IMG/VR virus record: IMGVR_UViG_3300031787_000234
Span: 1-44,278 of that record
Strand: one strand, 5' to 3'
Length of the DNA: 44,278 nt
DNA from: a virus
In this document: positions 2,321-44,233 of the stretch, piece after piece
How positions within the stretch are numbered: position 1 is the stretch's first letter
Layout: each line of letters starts with the position of its first letter
Translations under genes and position numbers: made by a program
Notes under the pieces: generated by a model
Seen by the model: only the letters and a program-made list of their open reading frames with translations
What the model was told of the DNA's origin: nothing
Databases searched by the model: none

Positions 2321-3346
2321 TCACGCCGCGGGGGCGGGCTTGGCCGGGGTGGCGATGACCTGCACCAACTTCTCTCGCCACTTGGGCGGGGCCTCTTCCA
2401 GCGTCTTCCACCCCTTGCGGTCCAGGTGGCCCTGCACCACCTTGGGCAGATCGCTCGGGATCACTCCGCCGGCAGCAGCAGCCGCCTCGAGCCGCTCCCA
2501 GAACGCGAGCTCGTCGAACGGCTGGGCGTCCTGCCCCCCGCCCCCCCCGGCGTCGGCAGCCGGGGGGGCATCAGAAGGGGCCTCGGGAGCGGGCGTAGGT
2601 GCCGACGGAGCCGCCGCACCAGGAGAGAGAGATTCAGGGGACGCCACCTCGGCGGGCACCTCGGCGGCGACGTTGGCGACGGGCTTGGGCTTGAAGATGT
2701 CCGACGCGCGGGGACGGGACGGCGGGCGGGCGACGTCCATGACCGGCGACACCCGATCCGCTTGGCCCATCTCCTCGTCTGTGTAGAGGCCGCTGAGGTC
2801 CTGGGGGAACGCGGCACGCAGAGCCTGCGACTCGGCGCACTTGGCGAGCATGTGCTCGGGCATCTTCGCCCACATCGCCATGGGCTTGCCGTCCCTCTTG
2901 ATCTGGGCGAAGGACTGGTAGCGAGCCACGCCCCAGACGGGCTCGGCAAACCCTTCAACCAGGATGCCGACACGGGCCGCGGCCGGGGGCAACGGGTCCA
3001 GCCACACATCCACCCACACGCCGTCCCGGCCGCACCACTGCGGGCCGACGCGGCCCCGGTACCGGCCGCTCCGCTGGGCGATGACCCGGAATCCGTCGAT
3101 GCCGACCTGGATCGCCATCACCTCGCGGCCCGCTTTGTCATCCCACCGCTTGACGGCGTGCACCTGTCTGGCGAACGGGTCCAGCCCGGCACGCCCGACG
3201 ACCTGGAGGAACACCGCAAACTCGCTCTCGGTCGTGCCCTTGGCAAACACATCGCGGATAACCGCGAGGTCCTTGGACGTGTACCGGCCCGCCTGCGCGT
3301 CGAGCGCGTTGCCCTCCACCTTCACCAACTCAGATTGGCTGCTCAT
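2321..3346 (-). CDS. bet: Bet/RecT-type single-strand annealing recombinase (341 aa)
   Basis: Phage recombination protein of the lambda Bet family, which anneals complementary single strands after exonuclease resection. Family hallmarks visible in order are GRAGLDPFARQVHAVKR, IQVGIDGFRVIAQRSG, VGPQWCGRDGVWVDVWL, MWAKMPEHMLAKCAE and ALRAAFPQDLSGLYTDEEMG. The conserved core ends near residue 195. The C-terminal ~140 residues are a Pro/Ala-rich linker and a small helical tail. ATG 3346 is preceded by AAGGAG at 6 bases; an in-frame TTG two codons earlier lacks such spacing. The start lies inside the end of the exonuclease gene (17-base overlap), so the two are translationally coupled and act as a pair. 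Confidence 0.93.
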   Translation of the reverse strand: MSSQSELVKVEGNALDAQAGRYTSKDLAVIRDVFAKGTTESEFAVFLQVVGRAGLDPFARQVHAVKRWDDKAGREVMAIQVGIDGFRVIAQRSGRYRGRVGPQWCGRDGVWVDVWLDPLPPAAARVGILVEGFAEPVWGVARYQSFAQIKRDGKPMAMWAKMPEHMLAKCAESQALRAAFPQDLSGLYTDEEMGQADRVSPVMDVARPPSRPRASDIFKPKPVANVAAEVPAEVASPESLSPGAAAPSAPTPAPEAPSDAPPAADAGGGGGQDAQPFDELAFWERLEAAAAAGGVIPSDLPKVVQGHLDRKGWKTLEEAPPKWREKLVQVIATPAKPAPAA

Positions 3347-4223
3347 CTTCAACTCCTTCCATGGCGGCCGAGTCGGCCACCGAGTTCACTTCATCGCTCG
3401 CCCGAGCCAGCGCCCAGGTCGGGATGCCGTTCTGTTCGATCTTCGTTGCGTACCCCGGCCACACGCCCGTGCGGAGGCACTCGGCGTGCTGGCGGAGCAA
3501 CTTCCGCATCACCGCCCGCCCGTGCTCGAGCGTGCAGTCATCCACCTCGTACACGGTGCAGACGAACGGCGCCGTGTTCTCCACCGTCAGCCAGGTGAAG
3601 CCGGCGACGTCGCCACGGGTCTGGGCAATTCCCTCCAGGTACCACGCGGCCTGGAGCCCGTAGTGGTGCTGGAGGACAGCGCGGGCGAAGCCGTCGCGGC
3701 TGCCGTCCCGGCAAGACTTGAGATCCAGGACCATCGAGTCTTCGGGCAGGTAGCGATCCAGCCGACCCTTGCACTTGATGCCGGTCTCCTGGTCAACCCA
3801 GACGACGGTGGCCTCGTTGTGGGCCGGACGGGCCAGCGCAGCCGCCGCCTGCGGATTCGCCAGGACCGACTCGGCCATCGCGGAGACGGTCGCCAGCTTC
3901 TCCTCCTTGAGGACCACGCGGTCACGGTGCTCATCGAGGAACCGGGCCTTGGCTTCGAGCTCGGCGCGGGTGCGGCCGAAGTCCTGCATGACCACCACCT
4001 CCCGGGCGAACCGCCCGGGCTCGAAGATGGCCAGGTGCAGGGCCTGCCCGACCAGCATGGCCTCGCTGACCTCGCTGGGGTTGTCGATGTGGTGCCGCAT
4101 GTGCGCCATCGACCGGAGCCCAACCTTGGCGGTTGAGAAGTTCCAGGCGTCGATCAGGCCGTAGCGGGACTGGGGGACGTCGGGGTAGTAGCCCGGCGCC
4201 ATGTGAGTGCGATCAGCGATCAT
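3330..4223 (-). CDS. PD-(D/E)XK exonuclease, RecE/exodeoxyribonuclease VIII type (297 aa)
   Basis: Probable double-strand-specific 5'-3' exonuclease producing the single strands used by Bet. It resembles the PDDEXK-like exodeoxyribonuclease VIII family: N-terminal GYYPDVPQSRYGLIDAWNFS, then MLVGQALHLAIFEP (the LGxAxHxxxxEP motif), VWVDQETGIKCKGRLDRY and the catalytic strand MVLDLKS with its D-x-K, followed by HHYGLQAAWYLEG (the Q-xxx-Y motif). Length fits the family. The start at 4223 is preceded by AGGAGGTGATGG. Its start is overlapped by the preceding 35-residue membrane-peptide ORF and its stop overlaps bet. Confidence 0.9.
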   Translation of the reverse strand: MIADRTHMAPGYYPDVPQSRYGLIDAWNFSTAKVGLRSMAHMRHHIDNPSEVSEAMLVGQALHLAIFEPGRFAREVVVMQDFGRTRAELEAKARFLDEHRDRVVLKEEKLATVSAMAESVLANPQAAAALARPAHNEATVVWVDQETGIKCKGRLDRYLPEDSMVLDLKSCRDGSRDGFARAVLQHHYGLQAAWYLEGIAQTRGDVAGFTWLTVENTAPFVCTVYEVDDCTLEHGRAVMRKLLRQHAECLRTGVWPGYATKIEQNGIPTWALARASDEVNSVADSAAMEGVEDEQPI

Positions 4224-4514: not shown

Positions 4515-4822
4515 TGGCCACCCCCTTCGGCCTTGGCGATGGCGGCGGCGATCTGTTCGGCAATCTCGCTCGCCGCGCGACCGTCCGCCCGTGGGTGCGT
4601 TGACCACCCGCTGGAAAAGTGCGCGATGAACGGCAGAGCCTCCTTCAACGCTGCCAGCATTTCATGGGCGGCGGCAATCAGGTCGGCGTCAGCCTGCGTC
4701 AGCGTGCTCGCTACGCAGTCATCCGCCGCATCCATCACGCAATGCGTGTACGTGTGGTTGGGCGTCTGCCCAGGCTGCCACACCGCACGCCAAGGTCGAG
4801 GCGAGGGTTCTCGTTTGCTCAC
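4511..4822 (-). CDS. Hypothetical helical protein (103 aa)
   Basis: Starts GTG 4822, which overlaps the TGA of the gene above (GTGA); the longer ORF upstream is a shadow of that gene. The N-terminal 30 residues are Trp/Pro-rich (PRPWRAVWQPGQTPNH). Residues about 40-100 form helices (LTQADADLIAAAHEMLAAL, ASEIAEQIAAAIAKAEGG). The pattern resembles the many small phage proteins of unknown role that carry an Ala-rich 'AAxEMLxAL' helix. It is translationally coupled at both ends within the recombination operon. Confidence 0.65.
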   Translation of the reverse strand: MSKREPSPRPWRAVWQPGQTPNHTYTHCVMDAADDCVASTLTQADADLIAAAHEMLAALKEALPFIAHFSSGWSTHPRADGRAASEIAEQIAAAIAKAEGGGQ

Positions 4823-5277
4823 TGGGCACCCCCGGCCAGGTCGGCGGCGAGGCGGGCGGTACCGGGCTCGGCGGGGTTGACGTTGAGCGCGAGGGCGGCC
4901 TCGCGGGCGACCTTCAGCGCGGCACGCTGGCGGTTGGCCGCCAGCTCGCCCACCGTGTGATCGACGCCGTAGCCGACGGCCCAGCTCGTCACCAGGTCCG
5001 ACCACTCTTCGGGCTTGATCGGGGAGCCGAGGTCGGTCTCGACACGGATGACAAACAGCACGAACTCATCCAGCCGCAGCCAGGCCCGCTCGGCCTGGGC
5101 GATGCGGCCGATGCTGCCACCGCACCACACGCTGGGGTTCTCGGTGATGGTGGCCGCGGCCTGCCGGACCAGCGAGGTCAGGACGGACCGCACGCCGTGC
5201 CGCCGCTGAGCGATCGCCGCATCAATCTCAGCCAGCAGACGGGGGAGGGGGAGGGGACGAGGGGTTACGGCATCCAT
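4819..5277 (-). CDS. Hypothetical protein (152 aa)
   Basis: ATG 5277 is preceded by GGAG at 7 bases. The product is largely helical (LPRLLAEIDAAIAQRRHG, SVLTSLVRQAAATI, AQAERAWLRLDEFVLFVIRVETDL), with a KPEEWSDLVTSWAVGYGVDHTVGELAANR segment in the C-terminal half. I recognise no family. Its 5' part overlaps the end of the integrase gene by 50 bases, on the same strand. The stop overlaps the GTG of the next gene, so it begins the recombination operon. Confidence 0.65.
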   Translation of the reverse strand: MDAVTPRPLPLPRLLAEIDAAIAQRRHGVRSVLTSLVRQAAATITENPSVWCGGSIGRIAQAERAWLRLDEFVLFVIRVETDLGSPIKPEEWSDLVTSWAVGYGVDHTVGELAANRQRAALKVAREAALALNVNPAEPGTARLAADLAGGAQ

Positions 5278-6448
5278 TGCCGGGCTCCATGAGCCTCGAA
5301 GCCAACCCCATCAGCCGGTTCGCCGTCGCCAGCAACACTCTGGCGCACTCCATCAGCGTCTCGGCTCCTGCACCTTCCGAAGCCCAAACAGGTTCGACTC
5401 CTGTCGGTGGCTTTGAGAATGTGCAGGGGGTGGCCTGTTCGGGCTCCGATGGAGTATCGGCTGTCCCTGCGCCCTGGTCAACTTTCCACATCGAATTTTC
5501 TGTCGGCAGGACCCGGACGGGTTTTTGCTCCTGTCGGTCCAGCCCCGCCACCGCCGCCCGGACCTCCTCAGTCTGGAGTTCCGAGTAGAGCTGCATCGTG
5601 ATCCGGATGTCCTTGTGCCGCAGCATGGACTGGGCCACCTTCGGCGTCACGGTCTTGGCCATCCGGCTGCCCAAACCCCGGCGGAAGGAATGCCAGCCGG
5701 CGGGCCGCCCCTTCTCGTCGCGCTTGGGAATCCCCGCCGCCGCCATGTCGCTGTGCAGCGTGCCCAGGTACACCGTCTCGGCAAACACCGGGTCCGTCGG
5801 GGCGTCGGCCGCGCGAATCTTCCGCCACCGTCGCAGGGCATCGGCCGCCGAGGGCAGCAGCGGGACCACGCCCTCATCCCGGTTCTTGCTGACTTCGCTG
5901 TCGAAGGTGATGCACGGCTCGGGCTCGGACAGATCGACGTCCCGCCACTTGATGCCCGTCGGTCCGCACATCTCGCGCCAGCGGCCTCCCACCAGCCCCA
6001 GGACGGCGTAGAAGTGCGACCGGTACTTCGGCCCCCCGTACGACGCCCGGCAGCGGGGACGCACCCGGCGCTCGTCCTCCTCGGCCACGCGGATCAGGGC
6101 AGCGACGTCGGCCTCGGTGAACGGCCGCATGGTCCGGTCCTTCCGCCGGGTGGGGATCGGGCCCAGGTCGATCCCGTCGACGATCAGGCTGGGGATCAGC
6201 TTGGCCTCCTGGTGCGCCCACCGGCAGAACGCCAGCAGCGCCGCCAGGTCGTTGTGCCGCAGTTTGGTGGCCGGCATGGCCGCCACTGCCTCAACGACGC
6301 GATCGCGCCGCAGGGTGCGAACGTCGGCACACCCGGCCCGCTTGCACATCCGCAGCACCGCACGGCTGTACTCCTTGACCGTGCGAGGCTTGGAGCGAAT
6401 CGAAAACCACCGCGCGAACGTCGCCACCTGCTCATCGAGCGATTCCAT
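5228..6448 (-). CDS. int: Tyrosine recombinase / phage integrase (406 aa)
   Basis: Site-specific recombinase for integration and excision. ATG 6448 has AGGGAG at 5 bases; the 40 codons upstream in frame run through the promoter. An N-terminal core-binding domain (about 1-100) contains PRTVKEYSRAVLRMCKRAG. The catalytic domain carries the expected residues: Arg in GGRWRE (~156), Lys in VSKNRDEG (188), HSFRR (H253, R256), LRHKDIRITMQLY (H278, Y288). After the catalytic domain comes an unusual ~110-residue tail. Residues 346-354 (KPPTGVEPV) are the antisense reading of a tRNA T-arm, which marks a probable attP inside the gene. Integration should therefore change the protein's C-terminus. Confidence 0.93.
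   Translation of the reverse strand: MESLDEQVATFARWFSIRSKPRTVKEYSRAVLRMCKRAGCADVRTLRRDRVVEAVAAMPATKLRHNDLAALLAFCRWAHQEAKLIPSLIVDGIDLGPIPTRRKDRTMRPFTEADVAALIRVAEEDERRVRPRCRASYGGPKYRSHFYAVLGLVGGRWREMCGPTGIKWRDVDLSEPEPCITFDSEVSKNRDEGVVPLLPSAADALRRWRKIRAADAPTDPVFAETVYLGTLHSDMAAAGIPKRDEKGRPAGWHSFRRGLGSRMAKTVTPKVAQSMLRHKDIRITMQLYSELQTEEVRAAVAGLDRQEQKPVRVLPTENSMWKVDQGAGTADTPSEPEQATPCTFSKPPTGVEPVWASEGAGAETLMECARVLLATANRLMGLASRLMEPGNGCRNPSSPPPPPSAG
5388..5411 (+). other. Probable attP core: tRNA 3'-end identity inside int
   Basis: On the plus strand, ACAGG-TTCGACT-CCTGT is a perfect tRNA T-arm (5-bp stem, loop matching TTCRANY). It is followed by seven bases, CGGTGGC, that would be the 3' acceptor strand. 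No matching 5' acceptor strand (GCCACCG) lies ~75 bases upstream, so this is not a tRNA gene but only its 3' end. Tyrosine integrases commonly use such tRNA 3'-end identities as attachment sites, and this one lies in their own gene. Confidence 0.65.
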
Positions 6449-6469
6449 GGTGACTCCCTGAGGGTCTCT

Positions 6470-6485
6470 CTCTGTATATTCAGAG
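6470..6485. promoter_or_regulatory. Dyad in the integrase promoter region
   Basis: CTCTG-TATATT-CAGAG is a perfect 5-bp inverted repeat around an AT core, 22 bases upstream of the integrase ATG. It is one of the few AT-rich spots in the genome. On the minus strand the region reads TATGCT...AATATAC, compatible with a -10 element, so the dyad could be an operator over the int promoter. No matching regulator is identified. Confidence 0.4.
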
Positions 6486-6576
6486 CATACCACAGCAGGG
6501 ACCGTTGCCCAGAAAGGCGGAAACCAGCAGAATGACCCAACCACCTGACACCGTGCCACCATGAACAAGGCATAGC

Positions 6577-44155: not shown

Positions 44156-44233
44156 TGCCCGGTGCCGGAGTCGAACCGGCGAGGTCTTGAGTCCACAGGA
44201 CGGACCGCGTGTACGCCGCCACGCCGACCGGGC
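44156..44233 (-). tRNA. Phage tRNA, isotype uncertain (CCU-Arg reading best)
   Basis: A 7-bp perfect acceptor stem (GCCCGGT with ACCGGGC, discriminator A), a 4-bp D stem (GCGT/ACGC) and a perfect T-arm (GCCGG-TTCGACT-CCGGC) are visible. The best anticodon arm is GGTCC-GTCCTGT-GGACT, giving anticodon CCU (Arg). It leaves no base 26, an unusual loop, and a 9-base variable region (CAAGACCTC), so the isotype is not secure. No CCA is encoded. It lies between the DUF6948-like C-terminus and the helical protein gene. Confidence 0.75.

Follow-up and report, generated by a model that had tools for sequence, protein, structure and literature searches.

A probable attachment site within the integrase gene of a putative planctomycete phage and the exchange of integrase C-termini in its relatives

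The stretch of viral DNA analysed here (positions 1 to 44,278 of IMG/VR record IMGVR_UViG_3300031787_000234; 44,278 nucleotides, hereafter the window) carries inside its integrase gene (int) 24 bases that are likely to be the attP core of a temperate phage, probably one of Planctomycetota, integrating at the 3' end of a tRNA-Thr(TGT) gene. With equal conviction we take the exchange of the integrase tail at integration to be a general design of a family of planctomycete integrases. According to this model, attP would lie in frame within a disordered linker of the integrase, with the catalytic domain before it and a short C-terminal tail after it. Upon integration the entire catalytic domain would be kept and the tRNA restored at the int-side junction, and int would lose its last 53 codons and run instead into the antisense strand of the tRNA, soon meeting a stop. 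For most of the mapped family members the lost tail would be a conserved helical hairpin, translatable together with int in the circular element only. The long form might then have a special role in some step of the circular state, integration being the simplest candidate, and the short prophage form might be restrained or suited to excision.

The integrase gene and its embedded tRNA-like site

The int product belongs to the tyrosine recombinase or phage integrase family PF00589. It matches this Pfam domain (1.8e-10) as well as a PHROG integrase (5e-26), its fold is that of a tyrosine recombinase (AlphaFold2 and Foldseek), and the positions R196, K228, H293, R296, H318 and Y328 (ORF numbering) are invariant in an alignment of 21 sequences. 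These invariant residues correspond to the catalytic ones of the tyrosine recombinase family. The features of the region are the following:

5228 to 6568 (-): int, tyrosine recombinase gene, a 446-codon ORF from TTG with a probable ATG start at 6446-6448
5585 to 5587 (-): codon of the catalytic tyrosine Y328, invariant in the alignment, 58 codons before the att site
5388 to 5404 (+): candidate attP core, a perfect tRNA T-arm in antisense to int, with a 5-bp stem and the loop TTCGACT
5405 to 5411 (+): 3' acceptor strand CGGTGGC, partner GCCACCG, with T next as the discriminator base, of tRNA-Thr type
5389 to 5415 (+): 27/27-nt identity to the tRNA-Thr(TGT) 3' end and its downstream flank in Planctomycetota genomes G487 and G489
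4819 to 5277 (-): next ORF, 152 codons, without a PHROG match; about 50 nt of it lie over the int 3' end, in a different frame
2321 to 4223 (-): genes for a RecT-like annealing protein and exonuclease VIII (PHROGs, 2e-62 and 8e-72), flanking the att site from the side of the int tail

The sequence ACAGGTTCGACTCCTGTCGGTGGC at 5388-5411 (+) is present in a single copy in the window when up to three mismatches are allowed. As the preliminary description had it, a perfect T-arm and acceptor strand lie here in antisense, past the catalytic tyrosine, in codons 346-354 of int. This numbering counts from the ATG at 6446-6448, and from the first in-frame start the same codons are 386-394. The site is in frame with int, and 53 int codons remain beyond it. 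One more perfect T-arm is found in the window, in the tRNA-Arg(CCT) gene at 44156-44233 (-), which is the sole tRNA called there by ARAGORN. After dinucleotide shuffling, 12 of 300 windows and 23 of 20,000 int genes contained a perfect T-arm; by itself the T-arm is unusual, yet no decisive proof of an att site. The reading as an att site gains weight because of the 27-nt match to a planctomycete tRNA-Thr and because relatives have the same layout.

The surroundings of the site are those of a phage genome. The recombination genes listed above lie on one side, and int and, later, the terminase on the other. Since phage DNA thus flanks the site on both sides, the contig shows attP and not a host junction; likewise, the left flank lacks the 5' part of a tRNA and int lies on the acceptor side, and therefore the site is neither of the two host junctions. 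The earlier proposal of a probable attP embedded in int is in this way supported, and 5388-5411 is most likely such a site. It was further expected that a bacterial tRNA would have exactly these 24 bases at its 3' end and that prophages would have attL and attR at this position. Neither came to light: the exact 24-mer had no occurrence in genome_contigs or in viral_contigs, the best tRNA-Thr in the genomes searched being one base off (A49 to G), and no lysogen or integrated copy of the window phage with both junctions was found. Two other IMG/VR contigs, L013 (17391 b) and L014 (8246 b), carry a terminase 100% identical to that of the window and are the same phage from other metagenomes; they do not reach int.

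As to the target, the acceptor stem GCCAYYG/CGGTGGC belongs, among the matches listed, to tRNA-Thr in 117 of at least 120 stretches (ARAGORN). With up to two mismatches the 24-mer occurs in 5 of 392 Planctomycetota genomes, and one of these five occurrences is a tRNA-Thr(TGT) with a single mismatch. Among 163 genomes from a single family of Planctomycetota, two share the 27-nt identity at tRNA-Thr(TGT), which runs four bases past the acceptor strand; at base 49 they differ from the window. Around the tRNA-Thr(TGT) of these two, G487 and G489, the GC content is 0.66-0.68, and that of the window is 0.687. The site thus resembles a planctomycete tRNA-Thr(TGT) at its 3' end, and judging from the sequence the host of the window phage is probably a planctomycete. 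Were the tRNA-Thr of another genome, G324, used for integration, int would end in GVEPAT and a stop, with 395 residues instead of 446.

Integrated relatives and the circle-only tail

Relatives of int were detected in 98 of 392 Planctomycetota genomes, most of them around 25-40% identical. A single-protein search of viral_contigs gave none, nor did the phage collection, and the plasmid collection yielded three haloarchaeal integrases with about 26% identity. Among the 27 readable loci of the 30 int loci listed, int overlaps an antisense tRNA or tmRNA in 18, with the stop inside it in 14 cases and readthrough in four. Integrase genes of the family lie antisense over tmRNA and tRNA-SeC genes too (L176, L174, L177), and the targets are therefore varied. 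At one locus (L168, G275:C2:824211-824924) the int ORF runs antisense through tRNA-Leu into a 1106-codon open frame.

Both junctions were first mapped for four elements. A first survey of 72 regions, these four elements included, gave 63 int ORFs; a repeat of 20 nt or more was present for 15 of them, and the other 48 gave no usable one. Twelve of these repeats sat at a tRNA and covered the int 3' end (11 in antisense and one in sense orientation), and the other three lay past the int stop. When the attL core was joined to the attR interior, int stayed open for 56-68 more codons in 11 of these 12 elements, and for 13 codons in L258. In a second survey, 20 regions with 20 int ORFs contributed three more such elements, having circle tails of 58, 67 and 67 codons, together with two short repeats away from any tRNA; 15 of the 20 had no repeat. 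Many of the repeat-less int ORFs of both surveys are on short contigs. In total there are 15 integrated elements with both junctions at a tRNA overlapping int, and in 14 of them int stops soon past attL and is open 56-68 codons further in the circular form.

These elements support the earlier claim that free phage and prophage would make different integrases. The idea that the last ~55 codons are cut off and replaced by host sequence holds for the relatives as far as the exchange of the C-terminus is concerned, the number in the window being 53; the replacement, however, is in the commonest orientation a short tRNA-antisense end and not a long host sequence. The junctions, too, mostly fall where the embedded site would place them: 15 of the 20 repeats overlap the int 3' end, with three lying beyond the int stop and two being short and away from tRNAs.

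The tails that are open in the circular form only resemble each other. Eleven of them have in common, with variation, the motif L..VV..W..LP..I+.AI.AMV, although they serve different tRNA targets, and a profile made from the tails of the first survey matches all three of the second (E 5e-5 to 5e-13). Neither Pfam nor PHROGs gave a match for the 10 tails scanned, and the tail was not found in the phage and plasmid collections. A profile of 10 tails, applied at a threshold of 1e-5, finds it in 46 of the 294 genomes of Planctomycetota and in 6 of the 194 of Verrucomicrobiota. In Verrucomicrobiota genomes the W..LP tail is also seen as short open frames (L339-L342). Within 350 nt on each side of the tail, a T-arm is present upstream at 22 of 34 loci, always in the same open frame, and downstream at none; when the six loci used for building the profile are left aside, the counts are 16 and 0 of 28. 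Two close pairs of tails show a mild deficit of non-synonymous changes (pN 0.19 and pS 0.29; pN 0.08 and pS 0.20). The conserved part is an internal, predicted helical hairpin, and the extreme C-termini vary. A joint alignment of the long form, the integrases and the tails was discarded, as the residues following the tyrosine fell under the tails.

An unbroken long form also exists in nature. The viral contig IMGVR_UViG_3300025162_000083 (L288) has a single 574-codon frame that runs from the catalytic core through the antisense T-arm to the tail motif, and no complete tRNA lies in the 40 kb of it that were analysed. In the AlphaFold2 model of this integrase the catalytic domain is folded; about 110 disordered residues follow, and a helix-LP-helix hairpin forms the end (pLDDT about 70-80). 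Since the long frame is confined to the circle, selection can act on its conserved tail only through events of the circular state.

Accessory factors are the usual explanation of how tyrosine integrases choose whether to integrate or to excise. If an integrase altered its C-terminus by its own reaction, it would instead be a self-contained switch. We propose, giving it somewhat less than even credence, that a large family of integrases of Planctomycetota and some Verrucomicrobiota senses in this way whether its element is integrated: integration would remove a conserved C-terminal hairpin that the enzyme has in the circle only, one gene would yield an integration form and a prophage form, and the direction of recombination would be built into the DNA. 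The window phage would be a divergent member with another tail. The tail domain offers a testable handle, by comparison of the long and the short form, and a marker for such elements and their tRNA targets. It also calls for caution, as integrase sequences taken from integrated elements may miss a functional domain.

The tail of the window integrase and alternative explanations

Two features make up the C-terminal part of the window integrase:

5228 to 5387 (-): int tail of the free form only, 53 codons and the stop, which would be lost at integration
5288 to 5368 (-): predicted tail helix, residues 401-427 (AlphaFold2, low confidence, pLDDT about 50-61)

The window integrase shares with its relatives the general layout of a catalytic domain, a disordered linker with the tRNA-derived peptide and then a tail. 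It has an in-frame attP after the tyrosine, as do the planctomycete integrases with a circle-only W..LP tail, and it differs from them in its shorter linker (58 codons from the tyrosine to the att site vs 71-102), in the weak codon signal of the tail and in having no W..LP motif; the profile of the W..LP tails, the other trait of the family, does not match its tail. In the linker the residues GAGTAD are encoded at about 5465-5500 (-), and many int relatives have a short ATGT[AD] motif at a like place after the catalytic domain. No relatives of the window tail were detectable. Homology to the W..LP tails was rejected, a six-frame profile search having given chance matches only (E 9.8), and the likeness to the tail of the integrase from genome G515 is not significant, as 899 of 5000 shuffles score as high. 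This integrase is the nearest relative of the window int (L315, G515:C39:30233-31861; 38% over 195 aa). It likewise holds a T-arm, here in sense orientation, and integration would therefore join int to the DNA downstream of the tRNA; its contig has no complete tRNA.

The attachment site may lie in int merely because of the compact layout of phage genomes, the tail being functionless readthrough in the window if not in all relatives, which we regard as possible but doubtful. Such a view is favoured by the ambiguous coding status of the window tail. Its codon score, computed where it is free of overlap with the next gene, is 0.03 vs a mean of 0.45 for genes, 26% of shuffles leave its frame open by chance, and it has no motif. 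A similar case is the natural viral contig L283 (4400-4817), with an embedded antisense T-arm in int and a tail without the common motif, and in four int relatives without tRNA overlap the protein extends just 26-46 aa after the tyrosine. In the relatives, however, the circle-only tails have one motif across tRNA targets and the profile of one set finds the next, and a frame without use would not be expected to remain open or to be conserved. For the window phage, in turn, the 53-codon tail has no conserved domain and its coding signal is ambiguous, and because of this a directionality switch is here a matter of inference. We likewise infer that the phage uses the site, that the tail is translated and that the long form is specialised for a circular-state step.

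It is unlikely that the circle-only tail acts as a tag for degradation or regulation which makes the long form unstable and leaves the prophage form stable. The same topology is known from mycobacteriophage repressors, the viral and prophage forms of which differ at the C-terminus (PMC8092301); what is conserved in the tails is, however, an internal helical hairpin and not the ends. That the T-arm of the window is a chance or relic sequence and no functional attP is very improbable, for all that the exact 24-mer is missing from the genomes searched, the search for lysogens came out empty and shuffled windows sometimes contain a perfect T-arm, given its rarity in shuffled int genes, the 27-nt match to one tRNA-Thr with its four bases past the acceptor strand, the relatives with the same place and frame logic and the embedded T-arm of the nearest one. 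The exchange of the tail at an attP within int thus remains our preferred explanation.

Comparison with known systems

Attachment sites derived from tRNA 3' ends are common and usually lie outside int, beside it. An example is found in PMC10865867, which treats tRNA-dependent lysogeny of mycobacteriophages and concerns the tRNA rather than int. As in these cases, the tRNA 3' half or T-arm would be restored at one junction, but the site of the window is inside the int reading frame.

Closer in this respect are the archaeal suicidal integrases of the SSV1, pTN3 and pT26-2 type, where the att site is in the integrase gene, a tRNA is the target and integration changes the gene. A review of these calls the type exclusively archaeal and describes int as split into two inactive parts and as carrying the domain PF16795 (PMC8371274). 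In the window the site comes after Y328, the catalytic domain is left intact and the exchange would be confined to the C-terminal tail; PF16795 is absent from the window int, for which Pfam gives PF00589 only.

Integration-dependent immunity of mycobacteriophages, with attP inside the repressor gene, was reportedly described by Broussard and co-workers in 2013. In that system the C-termini of the viral and prophage forms differ and a stop codon is provided at attL (PMC8092301). Common to both cases are an attP in a coding gene and a C-terminus that depends on the state of the phage. The altered gene, however, is there the repressor and here int, and the viral form there has an ssrA-like tag, whereas the part lost in the relatives is a small conserved domain with no conserved end. 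Compared by eye with the tag sequence, the window tail, which ends in PPPPPSAG, has no ssrA-like end, and the ends of the relatives vary.

The present case is an integration-dependent gene change like those of the mycobacteriophage repressors and the archaeal suicidal integrases, but one that remodels the C-terminus of a catalytically intact bacterial integrase. No description of a bacterial integrase with a C-terminus exchanged at integration, or of an attP embedded in a bacterial int, was found in the literature searched (subscription papers lay outside its scope), and priority for such an exchange in bacteria is uncertain. Gene products that change upon integration and excision are also the subject of regulated gene integrity, a concept reportedly treated by Mageeney and co-workers in 2020, and the exchange seen in the relatives resembles it in this respect.
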